Source of the DNA: Tubiluchus corallicola
Taxonomy: Eukaryota > Priapulida > Priapulimorpha > Priapulimorphida > Tubiluchidae
Assembly: GCA_030141605.1 (NCBI GenBank)
Contig: JAQGDQ010000336.1
Span: forward strand, 124,001 to 188,000
Length of the DNA: 64,000 nt
Direction: 5' to 3'
A program made the position numbers and the translations under genes. The stretch's first letter is position 1; every line of letters begins with the position of its first letter. This document shows positions 31,201 to 49,200 of this stretch, piece by piece. The notes under the pieces are model-generated. The model had not been told where the DNA came from and did no database searches. It saw only the letters and a program-made list of their open reading frames with translations.

Positions 31201-34200
31201 CATTAATAATGGTTTTATTAATGTATCTGACGTACGATGTAAGCCAAACATCCTGTTGCACTGGTCGCAGGTGCTTTTATCAAGCTCAATTATATAACCT
31301 CTGCGTATACAATAACTTTTACTTTGTATATAATGTTTTACCCTAATATTTAATTTTATGTAATTTTTTTAGTTATAGGTTTTTAACATTGTGTGCTATA
31401 GTTTAAATTTTATTGTATGTGTGTATGTGGCTTTTAGCTGAAATAAACTGATAAGTCAATCAATCAACCTAACCCCTAACCCTAACACTAACCCTAGTCA
31501 AAATTAATTGTAACTTTTTACTGTAACATTTTCCTAGCCGAAATGGTGACTTTTTTCCTGCAATTTTTATCATAACCAAATCATATTCACAGTGTTTAAT
31601 AAGATTTTATGCTACATGGAGTGATCTACAAGTTTTAGACCAATGTCTGCATGAATTATATGAGTAAATCAGCACGGGCACGCACTCGCACATATGTAAG
31701 CCTGTTAAATGTCAGCCCAATATTAATTTGTTGTATGTTGGCATGTCCGACTGTTCTTGTCTTTAAAATGATAACTAAAATGTTCTTAACTTCTTATTTA
31801 TTCTATACAGCTTTAAATATTTCCGCAAGCTTGCATCACAAATTATTTTTCGCGTTTCTTTCTTAGTTTATTCATGCACGTGGTGTCTTGCATTTGACCT
31901 TTCTAAAGCTTTAAAGGCCGTTAATCTTGCTTTTACTTTATAGGACCCTACGATGAAATTGATGTACAGCATAATTGAGGGGAATCAAGCGGACGATTTC
32001 AAAATGAACGATGAGTACGGCTAAACAATAGCATTTCTAAATGTTGTTATTTAAAATCCATGCATTCTATGTGACTTAGTAGTTTCAGCGAGTTTGTAAA
32101 TAGCCTAGAACTAGTTCCACACGAATGCAACCACGCACGCATATCAAATTTGAAAAAATGTATTAGTGTCAACGATTATAGGACATTTTTCAGTAATAAA
32201 GAAACTGTTGTTGAATTAAGAAAATTCAAGTACAGATTTTTTTTAAGGAAGTAACTTATGAAATTGTAATTATTTTTAACAGGAATTTTGTTTTTATTTT
32301 ACAGTGGGTTGCTTTTGATAAATCACAAACTACAATATACCAGGACTTCAGAATATTGGCTGACAGCTCGTGTCACCGATGGAAAATTTGTGAGTATTCG
32401 GCATTTCTTTTCTTTATTTTGATAGCATTAGTGAGGACAACAATGACGCCATTGTGTGGCTAAGGTGCATACGCATGCATCTCAGGTAAACTACTCATAG
32501 ACCATAGACAAAGCAGATTGACTACTTAATCGATCAGATTCAGAACTTATAATAAGTATTATAATAAGTAATAAATATGATTTATTGATCAAACATTGGC
32601 ACTATAATTGGTAGTTTTTTGATGTATTGTGGTCAGTAACCTTTAGCTATTTTCTTACATGAGTTTCATTTATTTTAACTCATAGCTAGTAGTTCACTAA
32701 TAGGAGCTGTTAATTTGATTTAATTAGTTCCTCCCGCAACATTTCTCTTCCAGACTGATTAGGAGTTGAAAAAAGTTATTTCAGAATCGTGTACCAAATG
32801 CTGTTAATTTTTATACTTTCAGAGCGATGAAGCCACAGTGAGAGTAGTAGTTGTCAACACGAATAACCAGAATCCCGTCTTTCAAGCAGCTGCATTTAAT
32901 TTTGAGGCAGAGAGATATGAGGACACTTTTGTTGGTCAAATAATGGCGTCTGATCCTTCTGGACAACGTTTAACGTATAAAGTTTTAGGATATGATAAGT
33001 AAGTTAAAACTTAACTTTAGGATTCTGTTGATAATTTTATCAGTTAATATAGGCCTAAGTTCATAATCACGTAGGCATAATCTGCCGTTTTGGAGCATGC
33101 GGCAGATACCGTACCGATACGCCAGGAGGTACGTTTTATGTGGCAGTGTACGGACTACGAAGTGTTTCTAGTGGCGTTTGCTTAAGAAGGAGGTGTCGCA
33201 AAAATCTCACATTTAATGCCACGCATTACTCGCATGTACCGGTCCCGCTTATTCTGGATGCATGTGTATGCGCCATAAAAATGAGTATGGATTATTTATG
33301 TGTCTCATGCAATTGTAACTAATAACCCTAAGAATAAGATGCCAAACTAAAAGAGGCTTTGTTTTTGGTGACAGATGTAAAATTATATCTTAATTATCCA
33401 AGTGTATCTAGCCAAGGTATTTTTTAGTTTTATATCACTATTGACTCTTATTTTGCATGTGTTCCTTGTAACATCCTGGAATTATAGCTTTGTCTTTTCT
33501 GATGGTTAAGTTTTTCGAATTTTCTGTCTTCTGCAATAAATTGTAACACTATATAGTACGCTATTACTCTTTTGTAATGTTAAGTTGAAGTTACTTTAAA
33601 CTAATAACAAGCAGAGGAGAGGTTTACATTACAAAGTACATTAGTCACAGTAAAGGGTGGTGCATAATCTCATGCTAGAGGGTAGAAAAACAACAGGAAA
33701 CAGCATTAATTTATTTATTACATCAATGTATTGCTGAATTTGTATTCTGTAAAGAATTTGTCATGCCTTCGAAATTTAGTGTGAGGTTTTTGCACAGTGG
33801 CAACCTGAAGGGTGACTTGAAAATTCTGAAATTATTTTTTGGATTGAATTAAATGGCTTGGAAATTCACTAGATCCCCATCTGCCAATACATTGTAGCTA
33901 CCCCAAAATACAGAAAGAATGCTAAAATGATAAATCACCTATGTTTGAGTAATATTTTGATGTAATAAATTGTCCTCTACTACTCGTTGTTTTTGTACCC
34001 CCTCCCCCAGCAAAATGTGCCAGCCTGTACCTTGGCGTAATGATGTCTTCTGTGCTAAATTGTACAATAATTGTCGGCATTATAATCTTGTTTTTTTGTT
34101 TAAGATATTTCACAATAACAAACAAAGGACAGTTGTACACTACAAAGTACACTAAAGAGTTAAAGCACAGTGAATATCATTTGACCGTGAAAGCGTGTAA

Positions 34201-37200
34201 TGAGGAGGTGCTAGAACTAGCAGAGGAGCAGCGGTGTTCAGTTGCCCTTGTCACTGTTAATCTACCTCAAATTTTACCAAGTAAGTAAGGAGTACCAAAG
34301 AAAGTCGTGGGTGATGTCTGATAATTAATGCGCAAGAGTAGTTTTATGTATTGTTGTTTTAAAGCCAATTCAGTTCTACATTTCAAGCCGTATAAAAATA
34401 ATCATCTAAGCAGTTTACCGATAATTATATTAACTGATAAAAAGTAATAGCATCTATTAATTTTTTCAGTTTTTGAGTGGTCACAAACTAGCTCCATTTA
34501 GACATGCGGCAATTGTAAGCACTTAGGAAACAGCTTACCTTTTATTAGGTTCAGAGAAGTTTTATAAAGTTGATGTTTTCAGGACAACTAACAACAACAA
34601 TCCGCCAATTTAAGATGACAGAGAAAAATAGAAACTGAAATGAAGTGAATGATGTACTATATGTTGTATATAGCTAATTATGTTGTATTCGCTCCCCTAA
34701 TTCTAACAAGGTGCACTAAAAATAATTCAATATACAATAAAGAATGTATTTCTTAAAAAATTATTTGAACATTTTAAAGTAATATATATAATGGTCGTAA
34801 ATAATTATTGTTTTAAGGTGCAATTATTGTACGATGAGTCTCATACCTATTAAATATTATAGATTATCTTTATTATTATATTACGAAAACCAAAACGGCA
34901 TAGTCATAATTGTATTGATAGCGGTATCGAAAGCACGCAATAATAGACAATTAACATAATAGTGATGGCACTTCTGTAAAATTGTAATGAAGATGAATTT
35001 TCATTAAAATACGTTTCACTAACATAATTTTTCAATGGACCTACTTCAGAGTTCTAATAAAATGTCACAAGAAATAGTATTGAACTACATTATTGTTTAC
35101 ACTCAATTTATACTATTACGTAATTATTTAAGAATTGTATCTTGGATAAAGATGAGAAAAGCTTGAATTCTAGTGTAGAAACTGTACTTATCGCGCGCGC
35201 ATAACGATCCACCTCCACTCACAATCCCATACTGCACATATCGTTTTCCTTCTGCCCGTACTAGTGGACCACCACTGTCACCTCTACAAGCGTCAGCACG
35301 TCTGTCATCAAATCCTGCACACATTTGCGTATCACCCATAATCTCGTATGGTTTAAATACTCGTTGGCATTCTGAGTGTTCCACTATTGGTAAATTGGCT
35401 TCCAGTAATTCCGGAGATGGTGGTTGTTTGCCGTTGGCAGTGACACCCCATCCCGTGACTGTTAACTGCTCACCTGGGCTTGGAGGCCTACTCCTGCCTG
35501 AAGGAAGACAAATTGTTCTTGCGCATTTTCCAATTTCCACCAAGCCATTAAGTTTTATCAACGCTAAGTCATTGTATAATTGTTCATCAAATGAGGGATT
35601 TGAGACAAGCCTTTCAACATTGAAAAACTGAGCATTAGCTTCGTTTGCATCTCTTGCACTCTTATGTTTTCCAATGCCAACTTCAAGATCTGAAGCCAGA
35701 AGAAGACGACCCGTGGAACGCACCACCACACAGTGTGCTGCCGTCAACACCCAGTTTTCAGAAATTAATGAGCCACCACATCTAAATGCACCTCTATGAT
35801 AAAGTGCCACTTGCCAAGGCCATTCACAAGGAACTGTAAAATTGCCACCAAGAATTGTCCTCCTAATTGAAGGATCTTTTGTTCCACACTCTGGGACACA
35901 ACGTGGGACTTGGTTAACATTGCTCCATTGTCCGTCTGAACCACATGAGGCTGTAGAGCTTCCTTGGATTATATATCCAAATTCACAGCTATATTGTGCT
36001 TGTGTGCCAGGCGGGTACCAACCAGCCGGTAAGCTGCTGGGATTTACACCAGGACCAAAAGCAATTGAAGTACTCGAGGCTTTTCTTACTAAACGTGGGG
36101 GTTCCCCACAGGCAATTTCTGAAGCCGGTTCTTCACATGCATCTCCTTTGTATGCTCCCACACAGAAACAATCAAATTTCCCTTGCAATAACTGTCTGCA
36201 TATTCCTCCATTTTTGCAAGGATTTTGAATGCAAGGGTTAAGCTCTTTGCTTTCACAATTATTTCCAATGTACCCTTTTGGGCACAGGCATGTATAAGAT
36301 GAGACGGAAGCTTCGCACAGGCCTCCATTCTTGCATGGAGCACTTAGACAAGGACTTATCTGTCTGTCACAGTTACGACCAGTAAAGCCATTTTCACACT
36401 GACATTCATAATTTTGAACAAGGTTTCTGCATGTTCCTCCATTCCTACAAGGCTCGCTAGAACAAAAATCTGATTCACAGTTGTCTCCAGTAAATCCAGG
36501 TCTGCAAAGACAGATGTAGGTAGACTCAGAAATTGTCAGACACAAGCCCTGATTCAAGCATGGATTATTCTTAGGGGAGCAAATGGCTTCGTCAACAACT
36601 TGCATTTCAGTTTGACACCTTTCTCCCACAAACTTGTCTGTACATTCACATAACAATTGGGCATCTTCTGATCGGCATATTCCGCCGTTCAAACACGGTG
36701 ACGAATCACAAACATTTGCCTGAGGCATTTCCGTCTCACATTCTGTTCCTGTGTACATAGCAGGACAAGAGCACTTAAAGTTATCTCCAAAATTTTGACA
36801 CGAGCCGCCATTTTGGCAAGGGAGACTGGCACAGAAGTCACGGCCATTTTCACAGAGACTACCAGTGTGTGTGACGGTGCAAATACAGATGAAGCTATTC
36901 GTGAGGGTTATACAGGATCCACCATTTCTACAAGGAGACGAGGCACAAAAATCTTTTGTTTGGTCACAGCGAGGACCACTAAAAGAAGATAGACAGTTAC
37001 AAATGAAGCTACTATTACCATTTACGCACGATCCACCATTTCTGCAAGGAAAAGAGGCACAGAAGTTTGGCAGTTGACGCCGCACCTCACAAAGACCTCC
37101 TGCATAATCCAAAGGACAGTCACACGTAAAACTTGATCCAGAATTTTTGCAGGATCCTCCATTTTGGCATGGTGCAGATTGGCAAGGATCCTGTCGTCTC

Positions 37201-40200
37201 TTTTGACAGATGGCCCCAGAGTATGGTGAAGGACAGTCACAAGCAAAGCCCAGAGCTGAACTAGGAGCTTCTAGACAAGTTCCACCATTCAAACATGGTG
37301 CTAGTCGGCACAAGTTTTGCTGGTCGTTCATTTCACAGTTAGTTCCTGTATAAAAGGATGGACAATTACAGACGAAACTTTCATCTACCGATATGCACGT
37401 ACCTCCATTCAAACATGGGTTCCCACCACATGGATCGAAAGGTTTGATTTCACATGTACTACCTGCGTAACCTCCAACACAACTGCACGTGAAAAACCTC
37501 CCATTAGAAAAACATTCTCCTCCATTTTTACAAGGGGCCGAAGCACATGCTGAAATTTCCTGACATCGACGACCTGAATAGAGTCCTGAGCACAAGCATC
37601 TGTACCGCCCAGGTGCTGTTTCTCTGCACGTACCCCCATTGAGACAAGGCGAACTTGAACACACATCATTTATTTCACACAGTGTTCCAGTAAGTCCAGG
37701 TAGACAAGAACACGTGTAAACGGTTGTATCGCCAATCTGGGAACATGTTGCGCCGTTTTTGCATGGATTTGGTGCACAGGCATCTTTCTTGTCACATGTG
37801 TTACCTGTATATCCACTGGGACAAAAACATGAATAAGTCCCTGAAGCCAGATCAATACATGTTCCCCCATTCAAACAAGGCGATGACTCGCATCCTATTA
37901 TTTGAACAGTAGCTGCAAACGAATTGCATTCAATTCCCAGAAGAAATTCAAGTTGCTTGCACAGTTCTGGATCGTTCCTAATTTGTTCTTGGATGTCTAT
38001 TTGCGCTGAGACTCCACAAGCGAAAAGTAAAAGAATTTGGCACGCGGTGAACATACTGCCAGCAACAGCGACACGCCACTCCTTGCACTGCAGAGCCGGA
38101 AAATAGGTTGTATAGGCAAGACAGCAACAAATAATCCAAATGTACAGGCTGTGAAAGTCGTGATGATGAAGTTACTGCAATGTACGGCACCCATTCAAGC
38201 CTAACGAATTGGAAAATGCTTTCCGGGAAAAACTGTAATCACTTGTTAACTAGACGGCCTAATGGCCTTTTTGTGATGTAAATTCGGTGACCACTGTCCA
38301 GTTTCAATAACCTGCAGATTTTGTCCCTAATAAAACTTTACTACGTGAATATAATAAAATATGTACAGTTAGCACTAGTGTAAGAAGGAAAGTTATTTTT
38401 AATATTAATACAGGATATAACACTACCGGATAAATATGCTATTTGTGTTTAAAATCAAACTTACGGAGTAATGGGTGAACGCCAATATCTCTAAACTTAC
38501 GATACATTGTATTGTCAGCTTTTTCTATTTCTAGTCGGAGCTCAAGTTCAGTTAAATAGTTAGTGATACAAATAGTCTTAATAACTGCATACACGTGCAA
38601 AGAGCTTTGATTTTTAACCCTGGGACGTGATTGAAAAAGTTTTTTTCGTGTTAATTTTGCCCATTTATCAATAAAATATAGACGCAGTATGGTATATAAA
38701 GAGCAAAGTTGCACCAAACATGAAAGAAATTGGCGGAATAAACCCGAATGGAATGAAATGTTGGGATTGAAATTAGATAAAACTAGACGCTTCCAATTGC
38801 CTGTCGAATGAATTGACCATGACCATGACAAAATAAATGGGGTTGAGCAGTATAGTGGTCATGCAATTCGATTTATAAGCAAAAGGTTCTAACCAGGCTC
38901 AGTCTCGAGTTTTTCACCTGTCCTTCTTTTCGGAAAGTTTGGATTCAAAATCCAATAACTGTGAGTTAATCCCATTATTAATCAGTAATTTTGAAATTAA
39001 GATTGTGAATAATAAGCTGAGGGAATTACAAAAGTCAAATTAACATTTATTTTTCAAATGCGTGATAGTTGATACCAATTTTTTGTTGCTACTGTTGGTA
39101 CCAATGGCGACTGTTCTATGTCACAATTGTCGCCATAGTTGTTGTCTTCACCAATTAACTCTTTGTATTATTTTATTTTAGATACGGTGAAAGCTGATGG
39201 TGTTGAACAGACGAGCCTGATTATTGCTTTAGCTGTCATTGCCAGTATTATGCTAATTACGATAATAATTATGGCAGTTATGTTACTTAAGCAGTAAGTA
39301 TAAGCAGAGAGGTGTCATTGTCTACAGTAATACCTCTCTGGTATAAGTCATAAATATCGAAAATTTGTTTTATAGTATGTGATTTTTACGTTAATAAAAC
39401 TCACGGGAGAAACCTATGGTACACTAACCTGGTAATCTATTTGTAACAGGACTGAAACTGTCAGAAATCTTTATATGATTGTCGTTAATATAAGGTTATG
39501 CGATTATCCATTTTTAAAGTAAACCTCGATATGTATTTCTTTAATTGTTTGTGTCTCACTCAGGGCCTATTTCAGGGGGGGAAGTGGGGATACTTCCCCG
39601 GGACCTCACCCTCCGGGGGGCTGGCGCCGAGGTAACATTTTTTTTGCTTTATGCGAACATTCAATTGTTCTTTTTCTTTCCTTTAACAGCTGTATAACTC
39701 CATATTTTCTCTTCGAAAATGCTTCTCCAGCATTCGAGCAGTTCAAAAATTTTCTGGGCGCCAACCATGGTGGCACCCGACCCACCCCCCGAGGGGGCCT
39801 CACACGCCCCACTTCCCCGGGCCTCGCTTTGGCTGACATAGGCCCTGGTCTCACTACTTTGAACATTTAATCATTTTCATTTAGTCATTTGTACTTCCTA
39901 TTTCAAAAGAGCACAAACCAACAATAAAAAGCAGACAAGATTTGATTAAAATGTGGCCACAATAAATACATCATTATTTCATTCAAGGAACACTCATCAC
40001 AAATTTCACAAATATAAAGCGTTAGTTTAATAAATGTTTACTTACATACTACCACTTACACGAATAGCATAATTATTACAAGTAGCACTATGCACTAAAG
40101 CACAATAATCACCTTATGAAGCAAAATAGGTGCACCATCATATTAACTATAATTCAGCACTACAGGCCTATATAGGGGGACTTGCTCTATTAACCAGTGA

Positions 40201-43200
40201 AAGCTAAGAGAGTCGTTCTCGTTGCTCATGTCGAGCGGCCTTATATAAACTTTTCCTTCATAAATTAGTCTAAATAGTGGGCTTCATGCAAGTCGTTCTC
40301 GTTGCTCATGTCGAGCGGCCTTATATAAACTTTTCCTTCATAAATTAGTCTAAATAGTGGGCTTCATGCAATGCATACATGCATACTTGTATGGTCTGAA
40401 ACTACCTACAGACCTATTCTAAGGGCAAATCTAAGTTTAACATTCAAGGCTATATTATAAGACTGTAGTTAAAGGAAAATTCACTAAGTAAGAAAAAAAT
40501 ACTAGAGAATTTAGGGGGAATTTTATAGACACATAAAATTAAATTTATCTTCGGGAAATATATATGCGATTTCCCGACACTCCCGAAATCAAAAAGAGAA
40601 AGTGATCATAGGGATGCTAAAAATTTCTGCAAGTACAGACAAAAATTCTTATTTCCAATACTAGATGCAACTAGAGATTAAAGTATGTGATCAATTGCAA
40701 ACAGTAGTAATCAACTAAATTGTCATACAAATCAAATAAATCATCAACAAGACAAATCAAATGACAATGCACGGGCATAATTGGGTTAGTAGCATAAAAG
40801 TGTAAACAAGTAACAAATGGTGTATAATACGATGAGGATACATGGTGATATTTTTGAGTTTCCTGTTGTAATCGTTTTCTTTATGTTTTCTTCTTTCATG
40901 GACCGTTTTAAATCTCCAGTAAAAAGTATTTTATCAGGAACATAGTCCGTCCACTAAACGCTTGAGTACTGGATCAAGTTAAGAAAGTATAAACCGTAAA
41001 CTTGGTGAACCAACAACCAGCAAACCGTTAGATGGAAAATGTGCGCACAATGAACGGTACTTGGAGGTGAAGAAACTGCTGGAACCATATGAGGAATATA
41101 TCACCCTTTGATTAGATGACATCTTCATCAATCATCTGCTGCAATAACTGGCGAGCCTTCTTTGCTGACTGACGCTGAGGTCGTGAAGTACTGGTGCTAG
41201 GAGTGTCACATGACTTGATGACATCATCGGTTGATTTATTTGCACCTACAAATGAAGCAGCATTACTGTTCGTGGAAGAACAAGAAGGGTCATGCACAGT
41301 TTTAGATGTTAAGTCTACGTTATTGCATTGATGATTGTTATGATCAATGTACTCTAAAGGATAAAGATGATTTATGTTTCTGATTAGTTTAGTACCATTA
41401 ACTAAAACACAAACAGAACGAATATGTCCATCAGCACTAGGTTTTAGCTCTAATATTTTCCTGTATCGCCATTGTCCACGGGTAACGTTGTCGTCCACAA
41501 GGACAACATCGCCTACATGGGGAATGACTGATAGAGTTACCTTCTCTTGTTTAATAAAAGTTTGATGACGCTCATGAAGACTAGAAAGGTATTCTGATCG
41601 CCAGATGTCCCAAAAACGTCCGAGGTAAAATTGACCTTTCTTCCAAACATTGAGTAAATTCCTTGCTGAAACTTTCTTACCAGTAAGGAAGTCCTGAACG
41701 TCATAATCGAAATCAGGTATAGATTCAATAACCTGCAAGTTGATAAGATGGGATGGTGTAAGAGCAACAGATGAATTAATATCTGTATCCACATAGACAA
41801 TGGGACTATTATTAATCATAGACTCTACCTGTGTAATTAAAGTAGTTAGCTGCACAGGTGTTAAGGGGCGACTAGCTATAGTCTTTCTAAGCGCCTTTTT
41901 AACCAAACTGTTCAGACGTTCATACACTCCACCTGTCCAAGCTGCCTTTGGTGTTATAAAATGCCATTCTACCCCTTTAGAAGTAACTGAGTCTACTACA
42001 GCATTCTCAAAGATGTAATTAATAGTTTCATGAGCTAGTTTAAATGATGAAAAATTATCAGAGAGAATAAACTTTGGAAGCTCACGCCTAGCAAAAAATC
42101 TTTGCAGACAAAGTAAAAATGTTCTGCTGTCAGATTGTGGACTAACTCTAAGTGGACTCCACGGGTGACAAAACATGTAAAGAGACAAATCCATGCCTTC
42201 TCGAACACGGTGTTACCCTCTCTAAAAATCTTTACCCTTACTGGCCCGAGGTAGTCGAGTCCACAACACAAAAAGGGTTTAGTGACTTTTATCCGTAATA
42301 AAGGAAGGTCCGCCATTTTAGGTAAGGCGTAAGGACTTCCATCAATTCTACGACATGATTGACATTCAGACAAAACCCGGCGGGTGACAACACGCCCACT
42401 GGGAATCCAATATTTTTGACGCACTAACGCGAGTGTCTGAGATGGGCCAGTATGTAAATTAATAACATGAACATGTCTTACCACTAATTTTGTGAATTCA
42501 TGATCCTTAGGTAAGAGGATAGGCCTCTGAGAACCATAAGTAACTAGGTTACCTAAGCGTCCTGTACATCGAATAATACCATCCTCATCTATGATGAGAC
42601 CTAAATTTTTCATATTCCTCAGCTGCTCAGGAGTGAAAGAGCGCTGTGCCTGCCTCACCCATGATAAAGTTGACTCTTCCAAGTCAGCAGCAGAGACACG
42701 TGCCCTAACGGGAAGATTACGAAACCGTTTCACAGCTTTAAAGACGTAACACGTCGTTCGAAGCAACCTGAGAAGAGAAGAGAACTTATTAACTGATATG
42801 ACAGTAAGATCACATGTTACATTATCTGTAGCACTAAGAACAGATTCAAAAGCAATCATTTCTTTGGACTCTTTAGTTTTGACCTCTGCCTCTATCTGCT
42901 CTAATTGCAAAGATGTAAGAGGAGGCAAATCACAAGTAGGCCATTCCGTTTTTTCAGAAAGCGAAAATTCAGGCCCATGAAACCAACTTTCAGATAACGG
43001 ACCAGAATTTGGCCTGGTAGCACAATCAGCAATGTTCTGCTCAGCTGGTACATAGCGTAAGGAAAAATTGTCAAAACTACGTATTTCTACTACTCTGTTG
43101 TGCACAAACGTAGTAAGAGGTTTACTAGACTTTAACCAGTATAATACGCACAAAGAGTCAGTAAACAGTGTACATGCTACAGTATTTAACTTAAGTTCTT

Positions 43201-46200
43201 GACGAGCATAGTTAACAGCCCGAGCGCCAACTAAAACTCCAAGAAGTTCTAAGCGTGGAATGCTGACATTCTTAGGAACGAGGCGAGTCTTTGAAAAGAC
43301 CAAATCCACTCTAACTTGCCCATCATGAAGTACCTGGCGTAGAAAGACAACACAAGCATAAGCATACATAGAAGCATTAGTAAAACACAACAGATCAAAT
43401 AAAATATCATCATCCACATTAGTACAAATACAAAGGGGTATATGCAAAGAAAAATGGTATACGAACGATCAGCAATCAATTTCCATTGTTCTAAATGATG
43501 CTCACTAAGTGGCTGGTCCCAGCCATACTTTTCTACCCAAAGTTGAGCTAAAAACAACTTTGCATCAAGGGTAAGCGGAGATACATAACCACAGGGGTCA
43601 AACAGACTCGTAACTTGTTTTAATATCTCACGTTTAGTGGAACAATTGTGCATACTTACATCAATCTTGTGCGAAATAGACAATGTGTCATCCTTGGTGT
43701 TCCATTTTAATCCTAATACTTTAATTTCTGAGGATGCAATTTTATCTTCCTCAGGAAGAGAAGCAACAAACTCTAGGTTATTAGAACCCCATTCCCTCAA
43801 ATTCACAGATGCCGTGGAAAACAGATCTTTAGCTAATTTGTAGAAGGAAATGGCTTCATCAGTTGTGGCAACACCAGTTATGATGTTGTCAACATACATG
43901 TTAGCTAGAATGCGACTCGCAATGGGTATCTTACCAGACATTTTACTAAGATGATGCTGGACAGTACCTGCTAGCATCCATGGGCTACTCAGAATGCCAA
44001 ACGGACAGCGAGTAAAGCGAAATATTTGCAAGTTACCAGTAGGATCAGTGTTACCTATATCCTTTAACCAAAGAAAACGTGTGACGTCTCGATCAGGCTC
44101 ATGTAAACCAACTGCAAGGAAGGCCTTCTCAATGTCACAAACTAATCCGTACTCGTGCATCCTGGAACGAAGTAGTACACCACATAAGTCGGGCATTAGA
44201 ACAGGACCGCGGTATAAGCAGTCATTTAGGGATGGACTAGATTTATTCACCTTAGCAGAGGCATTATAAACTATTCTTAATTTAGTGCTAGCTCTCTGGG
44301 GGGTGATAACTGGGTGATGAGGAATATAATGAATAGTTTTACCTGTAACGGTATCTTCGGTAACAGGCTCAATGATACCTTTTTCTAACTGATCCTGTAT
44401 GACACTGTCATATTTCTCCAAGAGCTGTGGTTGTTTAACTAAACGACGCAAACAAGATTTTAATTGGCCTAGTGAAAGTGCAAAAATATCAGGAAGTATA
44501 TCTTGTTTACATTGCCAAGGCCATGATACGTAATAGCGGCCGTCACGATACTCAACAGTATTATCAAAATTCTTTTTGGCTTCTAAATCTCCAGCACTTG
44601 TTGGGCAGTCAGAAATTCCCAACAAGTCTAAACCGCAAAATCGGTTTACATCCAAATTAATGTCATGTTTATTTACTTGATACAGATGATCAAAGGCTGC
44701 TAATGATGTTTCTAAGGTGTGTTTCTCCAAAGTAACTAAACCATCAGTTGTAATACCTGGTTCTATGCAAAGTAATCCAGCTCTGTGCTCAGGGGCTATT
44801 CTTGAAATTTGGATATGTTCCTCCTAAGACGTATCCTAAACATGTTGCAAAAAGATATAAACCAGGTCTAATTTCTTCTTTAAATGGCAAAAGAGTTTGG
44901 AAGTAGTAATCATTACCAATTAACAAATCTGTGGTATTGACATGATGGTTTGGATTACAATAGTCATCGGCTAAGCTATAGCCGTAAGTACATTCTAGGA
45001 AATCAGCTATTTCACGTGGCAAAGGTTCACGCAATGTAGGGGAAGATATGCATTCAGCCACGCGGACTACTAACGGTAGATACAAATTTTCTTTAGTAAT
45101 CAAATTAACACGTGTTGTAAAGCACGGTACCCTAGATAAGGTATGACTGCCAAAAGTAGCAAATTGTAAAAACTCACATTTAGTTGGCTTAATGCCTAAT
45201 TGTATAGCTAAACGTGTAGTTATATAAGAACAAGCACTTCCTGAATCAAGCGTTGCATTAACTTGAACCCGTTGATTAGTAACAGGATTACTTACAATAC
45301 AAGAAGCAGTTTGCATACATACGCTCTCCGAGTTTGAATACAGAGCCTTTTCTGAAATAGCTTATGTAGTTGGAAATCAAAGAGAAACTTCTTTAAACAA
45401 AGACTTCGGTGATGACCTGATCGGCTACAATGGACACAAACACGTGAAGACTTACAGTTAAGTGCATAATGGTTAATGCTTAAACACTTAAGGCACCTAC
45501 CAGCTAAAAGTGCTTTACGAGCAGCAAGAGTAGAATGAACAGTACATTCATCGCTATAATGCTGGTTTGATTTACAAAATGTGCAAAGAATTTTCCTACC
45601 AGAAGCGTTATTGGGCTTTTGCCGTGACTGAGGTGCTACCTTCTTAGGCTGATCCACAGCTTGCAGTACACTCTCACCTCGAGAAACACTCTGTGATTTG
45701 GAATAATCAGGCTTACGGTTGAAATGATCTGGCTTCCGAAGAGGACGAAGTGAAGAAGCTTCTTCTTCAACAGCTTCCAAGTTACCAACATAATTCTGCA
45801 AACGGTCACGAAGCTCTTCGGTGGTCCAAATAGCGGAATCGAATAGCTGCAAGCACAGATTTAGGTAAGCGGCTAGTTATTAGTGGAACTGCCATATAAT
45901 CATCTATTTTTCTACCAGCACATTCTATAAAACGCAAATGGACTTCAAGCCTATCTAGAAAACTGCACAAGTTTTTAGCACCTTCACCAACACGTTCTAA
46001 AGAAGACAGAGCTTTGTAATGTCTATCAAGCAAAACATCTTTATTACCAAAGCGCTGTTGAAGCACTGACAAAACAGTAGGATAATTCTCTTTTGCAAAT
46101 TACGTAACCATCTATAGAACGAGCTGCTGCACCAGTAAGTTTCAACTTAAGATGCTGAAATTTTTCCACGTCACTTAAATCTGGGTTGTTATGGATAGCG

Positions 46201-49200
46201 CTACAAAAAATCTGCCAAAAAGATGGCCACTGCAAAGCATCCCCACTAAAACTTTTGATTTCTAATTTAGGGACTTTACAATGTACTTTACCGTGTGCAT
46301 GTGTGCAAGAATTTTGAAACATTACCTGTGATACATTAGAGGCTGTAGGTGTGGAAGCAGGAGGTGAATGATGTGAATGAGATGATTCGTCAAGTCCATG
46401 AAGTTCCGTCATAACATCTAACTGTGCTATAAGTCGGTTGACTTCATCAGCCAAGTAAAGATTCTCATCAATATACTCATTAGTTTTTTGCATAAGTTCA
46501 GCAGGGTCATGAGACTGCAAGGCTTGGTCATTAAGTGTTTCAACACGGCGAAGTTTCTCAGATAAAGAAGATTTTATTGCCCGCACTTTGCTGGTAATAG
46601 ATAGAGGGTCTTTGTTAATGGCCTGAGAAGATAATTTGGAAAGATCTTCAGCTGTTTTTAAGTCTTTGCGCATCGCGCTACATGTTTTACTCGAACAAGA
46701 ATGGTAGAAGCCAAACGAGTAGCCGCAGCTGAGATTTAGTCTGTTTGAGAATTTTTGGACTGGCACCTTTCTGTTCGCCATATTTAAAAGAATCGACCTC
46801 AAGTTTGCCATAGGAAATTGGCTGAAGAGCAGGAAGGCCAATATCATCATCTGAATCAGTTGCATTGGAAGAAACTGCATCATGCTCCGGCTGGTTTGTT
46901 GGCTTAACTGGCTGAGCCGCATCGCCACAGTTCTTAGCAGTTTTAACGTCAAGGTCAACTATCTGAGTCTCTTCGTCTGCCGAGGTATCAGATTCAACGC
47001 GTTTTGCATACCCAGGGGATTTCATGATTTTCTTGGCCTGGCTACGGGTTCGAATAGGTGATTGCTCTGACATTCTGAAAAAAGGCTGTTCGTCAACATG
47101 CAAAAATTCTGTAAATCAATATCAAATATACAAATCAGCATCAACACAACAAACTGTTAGCAAACAAGCAAAACTTCCGAAAAACTGAGCAACAACAGTT
47201 CTTCAGGCTTAGCTAATCTAAATCCAGACCATACGGATAACAAATCTTTGTACTATTATCAAACTTCTAATTTAGAAACAAGTGATTTACAGGAAGCACA
47301 AAAAAGTAAATTAGAACAATTTGCAAAATTGCAGAGCCGACACTTTCAGCACCATATCGAAAATTTGTTTTATAGTATGTGATTTTTACGTTAATAAAAC
47401 TCAGGGGAAAAACCTATGGTACACTAACCTGGTAATCTATTTGTAACAGGACTGAAACTGTCAGAAATCTTTTTATGATTGTCGTTAATATAGGGTTATG
47501 CGATTATCCTTTTAAAGTAAACCTTGATATGCATTTCTTTAATTGTTTGTGTCTCACTCAGGGCCTATTTCAGGGGGGGGGAAGTGGGGATACTTCCCCG
47601 GGACCTCACCCTCGGGGGGGGGGGGGGGGCTGGCGCCGAGGTAACATTTTTTTGCTTTATGCGAACATTCAATTGTTCTTTTTCTTTCCTTTAACAGCTG
47701 TATAACTCCATATTTTCTCTTCGAAAATGCTTCTCCGGCATTCGAGCAGTTCAAAAATTTTCTGGCCGCCAACCATGGTGGCGCCAGCCCCACCCCCCAA
47801 GGGGGCCTCACACGCCCCACTTCCCCGGGCCTCACTTAGGCTGAAATAGGCCCTGGTCTCACTACTTTGAACATTTAATCATTTCCATTTAGTCATTCGT
47901 ACTTCCTACTTCAAAAGAGCACAAACCAACAATAAAAAGCAGACAAGATTTGATTAAAATGTGGCCACAATAAAATACATCATTATTTCATTCAAGGAAC
48001 ACTCATCACAAATTTCACAAATATAAAGCGTTAGTTTAATAAATGTTTACTTACATACTACCATTTACACGAACAGCATAATTATTACAAGTAGTACAAT
48101 AATCACCTTATGAAGCACAATATAAATTCAATTTAGGTGCACCATAATATTAACTATAATTTAGCACTATAGGCCTATATAGGGGACTTGCTCTATTAGC
48201 CAGTGAAAGCTAATAAGAGAGTCGTTCTCGTTGCTCATGTCGAGCGGCCTTATATAAACTTTTCCTTCATAAATTAGTCTAAATAGTGGGCTTCATGCAA
48301 TGCATACATGCATACTTGTATGGTCTGAAACTACCTACAGGCCTATTCTATGGGCAAATCTAAGTTTAACATTCAAGGCTATATTATAAGACTGTAGTTA
48401 AGAAAAAATGCTAGAGAATTTAGGCGTGGGGACTTTATAGACACATGAAATTAAATTTATCTTCGGGAAATATATATGCGATTTCCCGACAATAAATATT
48501 TTATAAACTTTTCCTAAATATTTCATAAGTATTATCTAAACAAAAACAACGTCATTAAAATAGTGTCAAGTAATGTTGATTGAATGTTATGTTGAAGAAT
48601 GTATACTAACTATGTCATGAAATTAGCCAATTTCTTTCATCTTGATGAAGTATGTGCAGGCGTATAACACCAAGTTTTGTTCATAATTCAGTCAGCTGCA
48701 AGTGTTGACAAGTGTTTCACAATGAACACAATATCTAAAATATTGTTCTGCTGCATAGAAAAGCTTTTGTGTGAGCTGTATAATCATTGTGAGTACTGGT
48801 TTTTGAGCTGGATGTTGCACGGTGCTGCCATCTGGCAACGAAAATACTACGAAAACAATTTACAATTCCTTTAAGGCCAAATAGGTAGAATTAATAAAAA
48901 TATCCAAAGACAGTGACTGCCCGACCTTAAAATTTTTTTGAATTTGAATTCGCGCAGTTCCATACTGGACAGAGGTTTCTAATAGAAGTTTTTAGTAACA
49001 ACTGATTTATTTTGTGTCAACTCTCTCGCTGGTATAGCTTAAATCTGGGCCGGGTTTCAGCCTAATGGTCCCTGGTTCAAATCCTGTCCCAACAGCTTCA
49101 CTATTCCATTTTTTTCGGTTATTTAGGCCTCTAAGTTTCGTATAATAGTCCTGTGTATGTAACCTCCTTTGTATGATCCTGCTTATTGAGACTACTGAGG

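Follow-up and report, generated by a model that had tools for sequence, protein, structure and literature searches.

We analyzed a stretch of 64,000 nucleotides from the priapulid Tubiluchus corallicola (assembly GCA_030141605.1, contig JAQGDQ010000336.1, positions 124,001 to 188,000; hereafter the window) and found that its reverse strand carries a single coding exon at 35124..38054. It starts with ATG, ends with TAA, comprises 976 codons and encodes a signal-peptide-like start, 15 EGF domains, a CCP domain and a trypsin-type protease. This exon lies antisense within one intron of a cadherin-like gene, and its closest relatives in the genome are also single frames. We consider it likely that it represents an old and functional gene with one coding exon and that it is part of a small single-exon group of CCP-protease genes. 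The original prediction, made from the window itself, had favored an mRNA-derived retrogene under selection or, alternatively, an unusual intron-poor gene.

The nested gene and its protein

The frame extends from stop to stop over 35124-38171 (-) and comprises 1015 amino acids, with 39 codons open upstream of the ATG. The other five frames contain 25–81 stop codons each over 35124-38054, and from their mean stop rate, the chance of 976 open codons was calculated to be approximately 2e-20. The guanine-plus-cytosine (GC) content at third codon positions was 0.32, compared with 0.323 in the flanks. As judged by eye, residues 1-17 (38004..38054) form a signal-peptide-like start. The 15 EGF-like domains, all with intact cysteine patterns, occupy residues 55-640 (36135..37892); CXSX(P/A)C and C2-XXXX-(S/T)-C3, which we take to be the O-glucose and O-fucose consensus motifs of Notch type, were each present in 10 of the 15. 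In the whole-protein Pfam scan, which listed seven families, EGF and Trypsin scored far above the cut-off and Sushi/CCP was absent at E ≤ 1e-3; when residues 649-719 (35898..36110) were scanned as a separate segment, a CCP/Sushi domain whose second cysteine is preceded by an insert was detected (34.6 bits, cut-off 20.7). The trypsin-type (S1) protease domain covers residues 734-976 (35127..35855; Pfam Trypsin, E = 1.6e-53) and has the features that define an S1 peptidase, with an intact catalytic triad at the motif positions (His774, Asp829 and Ser927) and Asp921 as the specificity residue at the position called 189. The description of an intact 976-codon frame with 15 EGF domains, a CCP and an intact protease was thereby borne out by the frame, the cysteine patterns, Pfam and the triad. 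A single-sequence structure prediction of the CCP-protease part gave a mean predicted local distance difference test score of 33, too low for use.

The predicted activation site, RRT^IL (35850..35864 (-)), has Thr in place of Arg: Thr733 precedes Ile734, where Arg or Lys before Ile16 is usual, although this residue is not needed for membership of S1. We infer that the protein is secreted as a zymogen, in which a rod of 15 EGF domains and one CCP may dock or hold the protease at its target. The zymogen would be cut before Ile734, and its light part would probably remain disulfide-linked through the cysteine directly preceding the protease domain. In the zymogen mechanism, the new N-terminus pairs with the Asp adjoining the active serine (PMC6889508). 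Because of Asp921, the active enzyme would be expected to cleave after Arg or Lys. Because Thr precedes the cut, the gene product is probably activated neither by a trypsin-like enzyme nor by itself; an elastase- or chymotrypsin-like activator, or cleavage at RR with subsequent trimming, appears more likely. Because activation after Thr is uncommon, the activator would be expected to come from a different class of protease.

The enclosing host intron (34281..39181 (+), 4,901 bp, phase 1) has GT..AG ends (GTAAGT..TTTTAG). It is preceded by a cadherin-like exon at 34105..34280 (+) and followed by an exon at 39182..39293 (+) with a stretch that looks transmembrane-like by eye, and these two exons stay in frame across the intron. 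The coding part of the gene lies wholly inside this one intron, on the opposite strand and without interruption; with respect to the coding frame, it is a nested intronless gene, antisense to its host, as had been predicted. Nested genes are usually found on the strand opposite to their host. The present gene would have reached the intron by insertion in this orientation. The naming of the host as a cadherin depends on Pfam scores below the cut-off of 28.8 bits together with an exon containing DVNDNAP, and we call it cadherin-like on these grounds: the two flanking exons joined to the preceding exon scored 24.2 bits, and of seven host-strand open stretches scanned singly, one scored 28.2 bits, another scored 13.5 bits and the other five gave no Cadherin match. 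The codon usage of the nested gene correlated at 0.32 with that of 229 host codons, a value that is uninformative. No Rfam match was obtained at the gathering threshold. An AATAAA candidate polyadenylation signal is located at 34869..34874 (-), 250 nt past the stop codon.

A second copy, selection and the CCP-protease group

Genome searches were performed on the single assembly that contains the window (343.5 Mb). The whole-protein search revealed a second full-length copy (copy B, contig C177), a single frame of 975 amino acids with 14 EGF domains; in the alignment it lacks an equivalent of EGF8 in the window copy. The two copies share 74.4% amino-acid identity over 936 aligned codons. The numbers of nonsynonymous (dN) and synonymous (dS) substitutions per site over these codons were 0.159 and 0.659 by NG86, 0.166 and 0.578 by YN00, 0.158 and 0.532 by LWL85, and 0.153 and 0.636 by maximum likelihood, respectively, giving dN/dS ratios of 0.24–0.30. 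Moreover, dN was lower than dS in all six regions tested, with ratios from 0.18 to 0.35 (NG86). The nested gene is under purifying selection, in agreement with the original prediction.

Synonymous differences were unevenly distributed between the copies. Within residues 88-175 (37530..37793 (-)), only 5 of 80 codons differed synonymously, compared with a proportion of 0.283 overall, and none of 5000 shuffles gave a value as low. This tract looks like the result of gene conversion between the copies, and constraint on synonymous sites is a possible alternative. Homology begins at the start codon and continues through the final codon, and beyond these limits we found only matches that look AT-rich. 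An exon of INTS15 is located 2.3 kb past the 3΄ end of copy B on the other strand, and a tblastn comparison of the host exons with 36 kb around copy B gave a best E of 0.89, so that no nesting of copy B was seen. Further copies were not detected in the window (tblastn matches with E of 1.4 or worse only). The EGF repeats of the window gene were rejected as a clock, because synonymous differences among them were saturated (mean proportions of synonymous and nonsynonymous differences, 0.78 and 0.42). No viral contig matched the gene, and eight pattern matches in prokaryote genomes included no relatives. Chief among the AT-rich-looking matches outside the two coding frames, positions 33654-34018 of the window, in the preceding host intron, match C177 at about 1999674-2000186, which is 3.6–4.1 kb beyond copy B; the match is approximately 60–79% alike, occurs in both orientations and is probably a repeat.

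The next-nearest relatives, on contigs C540 (756 amino acids) and C76 (758 amino acids), are single frames that encode three Ig domains and a protease. By our own reading of the sequences, a region resembling a CCP, which includes a comparable insert, precedes the protease in both; Sushi was absent from the Pfam listing at E of 0.01 for these two proteins and for the whole of copy B. We gathered 31 protease frames in addition to that of the window gene; 28 in the combined set were distinct, and 27 were placed in a tree without the frame from contig C1399. The window copy, copy B and the C540 and C76 genes fell on one side of a branch with support of 100/99, and the remaining 23 proteases, likewise from this genome, fell on the other. 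All four have Thr before the predicted activation cut, compared with Arg in all 12 other places where our script recognized the site; it recognized none in the remaining frames. At the position called 189, both EGF members have Asp and both Ig members have Gly, and the two pairs should therefore differ in specificity. Residue 225 governs Na+ activation, and the residue that we placed there by eye is Tyr or Phe in all four.

These patterns can be combined into a broader proposal, which we regard as unlikely: in this lineage, a single-exon CCP-protease unit may have been joined, without introns, to arrays of 14 or 15 EGF or three Ig domains, the arrays changing in number within one exon, with gene conversion between copies and with a conserved, non-trypsin (Thr) activation site in all members. 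If true, domains would have been shuffled here by some means besides exon shuffling, and these proteases would form a group with its own activation chemistry. The Thr conserved ahead of the activation cut is an oddity that lends itself to direct biochemical testing.

Origin of the uninterrupted frame

We further analyzed how protease and EGF-array genes are arranged across the genome. Scored candidates were 47 of 998 in the whole-protein search, 119 of 163 for the CCP-protease part and 150 of 363 for the Pfam Trypsin model, and several counts were made by hand. The CCP-protease part gave 59 matches; in 39 of these, one frame spans 80% or more of the protease domain, and 37 of the 39 are stop-free. 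Among the 150 Trypsin rows reported, 53 cover at least 176 of the 220 profile positions in one frame; 41 of these start at profile position 1-3, and 38 of the 41 have no internal stop. A complete trypsin domain thus occurs within a single stop-free frame at no fewer than 38 places, which are places and not genes. Four other rows start at position 20-43, and eight more, with frames of 420–496 amino acids and starts at position 16-28, look HtrA-like and may come from bacterial contigs (C151, C755, C1597, C2335, C652, C918, C2000 and C31). The remaining 97 of the 150 rows are shorter, and many are exon-sized. These mixed lengths indicate that split and unbroken protease genes coexist in this genome. 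For example, the C1399 gene looks split by eye, with a TSP1-like stretch, an activation-site exon and a protease exon.

Ten loci of about 10 kb each (L032-L041), which had been picked for unbroken domains, have a GC content of 0.34–0.42; frames of at least 150 amino acids cover 0.10–0.29 of seven of them and 0.54–0.68 of the other three. Most of their protease frames begin, by eye, with a signal-peptide-like start. We take these loci for genes of the animal, the three with high coverage less surely.

EGF arrays were also found in unbroken frames. The original prediction had assumed that EGF-rich genes are usually highly split; the arrays among the matches listed (47 of 998 candidates scored, where long arrays score best) sit in open frames that measure between 680 and 7,414 amino acids, and that assumption does not describe them. 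The frames with EGF arrays at L028, L029 and L031 (contigs C2307, C2138 and C448), parts of which were fetched, measure 4,706, 6,684 and 2,932 amino acids and would be extremely long exons for animal genes. Identical match scores on C1787, C2264 and C2138, and on C156, C1309 and C1753, suggest uncollapsed haplotypes or recent copies. In the window gene, CpG dinucleotides were depleted beyond codon content (80, compared with 107 in synonymous shuffles). The z values were -4.3 to -14.0 in six single-frame EGF genes tested (the window gene, L010, L027, L028, L030 and L031), and the depletion was weak in the C540 (z = -2.5) and C76 (z = -2.2) genes; this may reflect germline gene-body methylation.

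A poly-A tract and a target-site duplication are described as hallmarks of retrogenes (PMC7692494). The nested gene has neither: no A-run longer than 6 nt lies past the stop codon, and no 11-mer is common to both flanks inside the intron, where 9- and 10-mers are shared no more than in shuffles. Such marks may decay with age. The next host intron, which follows the transmembrane-like exon, contains a BEL/Pao-type long terminal repeat (LTR) element at 39354-48491 (-), with repeats at 39354-40579 and 47354-48491 that are 91–93% alike in two pieces and 85% alike in one gapped alignment, and with what resembles, by eye, a 5-bp target duplication. Because this element still shows its repeats and this apparent duplication, any insertion of the gene by reverse transcriptase is probably older than the element. 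Capture of the gene by the element was rejected, as both repeats lie outside the gene, in that next intron. Two local duplications were also observed: the left repeat contains a perfect 80-bp tandem duplication at 40211-40371, and a 41-bp piece of the host exon before the nested gene (34114-34154) recurs at 33603-33643 in the preceding intron with 83% likeness, as a partial exon duplicate.

The prediction that the gene lacks a single intron holds for the coding frame, where one frame runs across all domains and splice-like sites occur at the rate of the window (two donors vs 1.6 expected, and 11 acceptors vs 10.0 expected). The transcript may differ. An acceptor-like site at 38088..38107 (-) would let an exon begin at 38087, which precedes the ATG by 33 nt; it has a score of 5.27, comparable to that of the host acceptor at 39182 (5.22). 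Copy B has an acceptor-like site 28 nt upstream of its first ATG (score 5.16), and TGCA follows the site in both copies. Among 3,517 ATGs, 3.7% have an acceptor scoring at least 5.16 within 60 nt; 3 of 28 other single frames have such a site within 60 nt, all in the C2247 cluster and 3 nt from the ATG. The C540 and C76 genes have no acceptor-like site scoring over 3 within 150 nt of the ATG, and C540 has two further upstream, at 216 and 299 nt. It is plausible that the transcript keeps an intron in its 5΄ untranslated region (UTR) or a trans-splice site; for this reason, it should not be called intronless.

We weighed these results against the other origins that could be proposed. A recent retrogene, produced when a multi-exon EGF-CCP-protease gene gave a spliced mRNA whose reverse transcript entered the host intron, would account for an intron-free coding frame lying antisense within an intron, and has precedents: single-coding-exon nested genes have been presumed retrotransposed (PMC3933685), and 2 of 72 trypsin genes of Nematostella are intronless and were called likely retrotransposed (PMC6767649). 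However, the nearest relative is itself a single frame separated by a synonymous divergence of about 0.53–0.66, the next-nearest relatives are single frames as well, the poly-A run and the flanking duplication are absent, and no split parent, which the retrogene claim of the original prediction calls for, was seen among the matches listed of 154 for the whole protein or among the 59 for the CCP-protease part. A recent retrogene is accordingly very unlikely, and the alternative offered with it, an intron-poor gene, fits the results. It is extremely improbable that the frame is a pseudogene or is functionless: the dN/dS ratios, the 15 intact EGF cysteine patterns and the intact triad all oppose this idea.

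Two further origins were considered. The ancestor of the single-exon CCP-protease genes may have arisen from a spliced mRNA, with copies, the window copy among them, later spread by DNA or RNA duplication; this proposal overlaps with that of an old single-exon gene and adds an origin to it, and we hold it as a tentative possibility. It agrees with the coexistence of split (e.g. C1399) and unbroken protease genes, with the finding that each of the four CCP-protease members observed is a single frame, and with the loss of poly-A and target-site marks from old insertions. However, no direct trace of such an event survives. In addition, the differing EGF and Ig fronts would require later module exchange if there was a single event, and the acceptor-like sites by the ATGs of both EGF copies are more easily reconciled with a 5΄ intron that was kept than with a clean retrocopy. 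Those sites, together with the conversion-like tract, would also agree with a loss of coding introns in place by cDNA recombination, with the 5΄ intron kept and the loss perhaps spread by gene conversion. We regard this as somewhat unlikely, because the site scores are home-made and post hoc, comparable sites occur in the C2247 cluster, the C540 and C76 genes have no such site near the ATG, and constraint could explain the low synonymous change of the tract.

Several points weigh against an old single-exon gene within a single-exon group, which we still consider likely. When the split, long-branch C1399 gene was included in the tree, it fell inside the group of four; the group may be impure if C1399 belongs to it, and in both trees the software warned of long branches where the four are set apart. 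The age of the gene is relative, and the basis is the sequence of one assembly. Some of its contigs may be bacterial-like and others may represent haplotypes left uncollapsed, and for this reason places are not genes. Both the trypsin and the EGF lists favor unbroken domains, with longer matches scoring higher. The flanks of the two copies are silent on DNA versus RNA copying, because neutral flanks are unreadable at a dS of 0.5–0.7. Finally, the splice-site scoring behind the putative 5΄ intron was post hoc and our own.

Comparison with known systems

Neither nested genes without introns nor modular EGF/CCP proteases are new, and a single-exon arrangement is ordinary for the genome studied; among the open-access papers listed by our literature searches, we recognized none that describes this gene or its architecture. 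It may be of specialist interest that numerous complete protease domains, as well as EGF arrays of great length, occur uninterrupted in this genome alongside split ones, each in a single open frame, and the genome is suited to testing the intron-free reshuffling of extracellular modules and the spread of single-exon secreted genes.

MASP-1, MASP-2, C1r and C1s have the domain order CUB-EGF-CUB-CCP-CCP-protease. The nested gene resembles them in having a CCP followed by a trypsin-type protease, and MASP-1 and MASP-2 were its best solved-structure match over these two domains; for the protease domain alone, enteropeptidase, chymotrypsin and matriptase scored about equally. However, no CUB is among the seven Pfam families listed, one CCP and 15 EGF domains are present, and the activation cut follows Arg in the MASP and C1r/C1s proteins but Thr in the nested gene. 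MASP-related molecules (MReM) have been named as the counterparts of MASP in invertebrates (PMC9835746). Horseshoe-crab factor C is likewise a secreted invertebrate protease with EGF and CCP domains ahead of the protease, and contains a Cys-rich region, one EGF, five CCP, an LCCL, a C-type lectin and the protease (PMC10672452); of these modules, the nested gene shows just EGF, a single CCP and the protease, with no LCCL or lectin among the seven families listed.

With respect to gene structure, a close likeness is to the LRRTM genes in the introns of alpha-catenin genes, which have one or nearly one coding exon, encode extracellular modules, lie antisense in an adhesion-related host and are presumed retrotransposed (PMC3933685). 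Those pairs are reported as conserved in most jawed vertebrates (PMC3933685), whereas in the present genome nesting was seen for the window copy and not for copy B. The intronless trypsin genes of Nematostella are similar in encoding a trypsin domain without introns; they number 2 of 72 (PMC6767649), compared with at least 38 unbroken whole-domain places, not genes, in the genome studied here.

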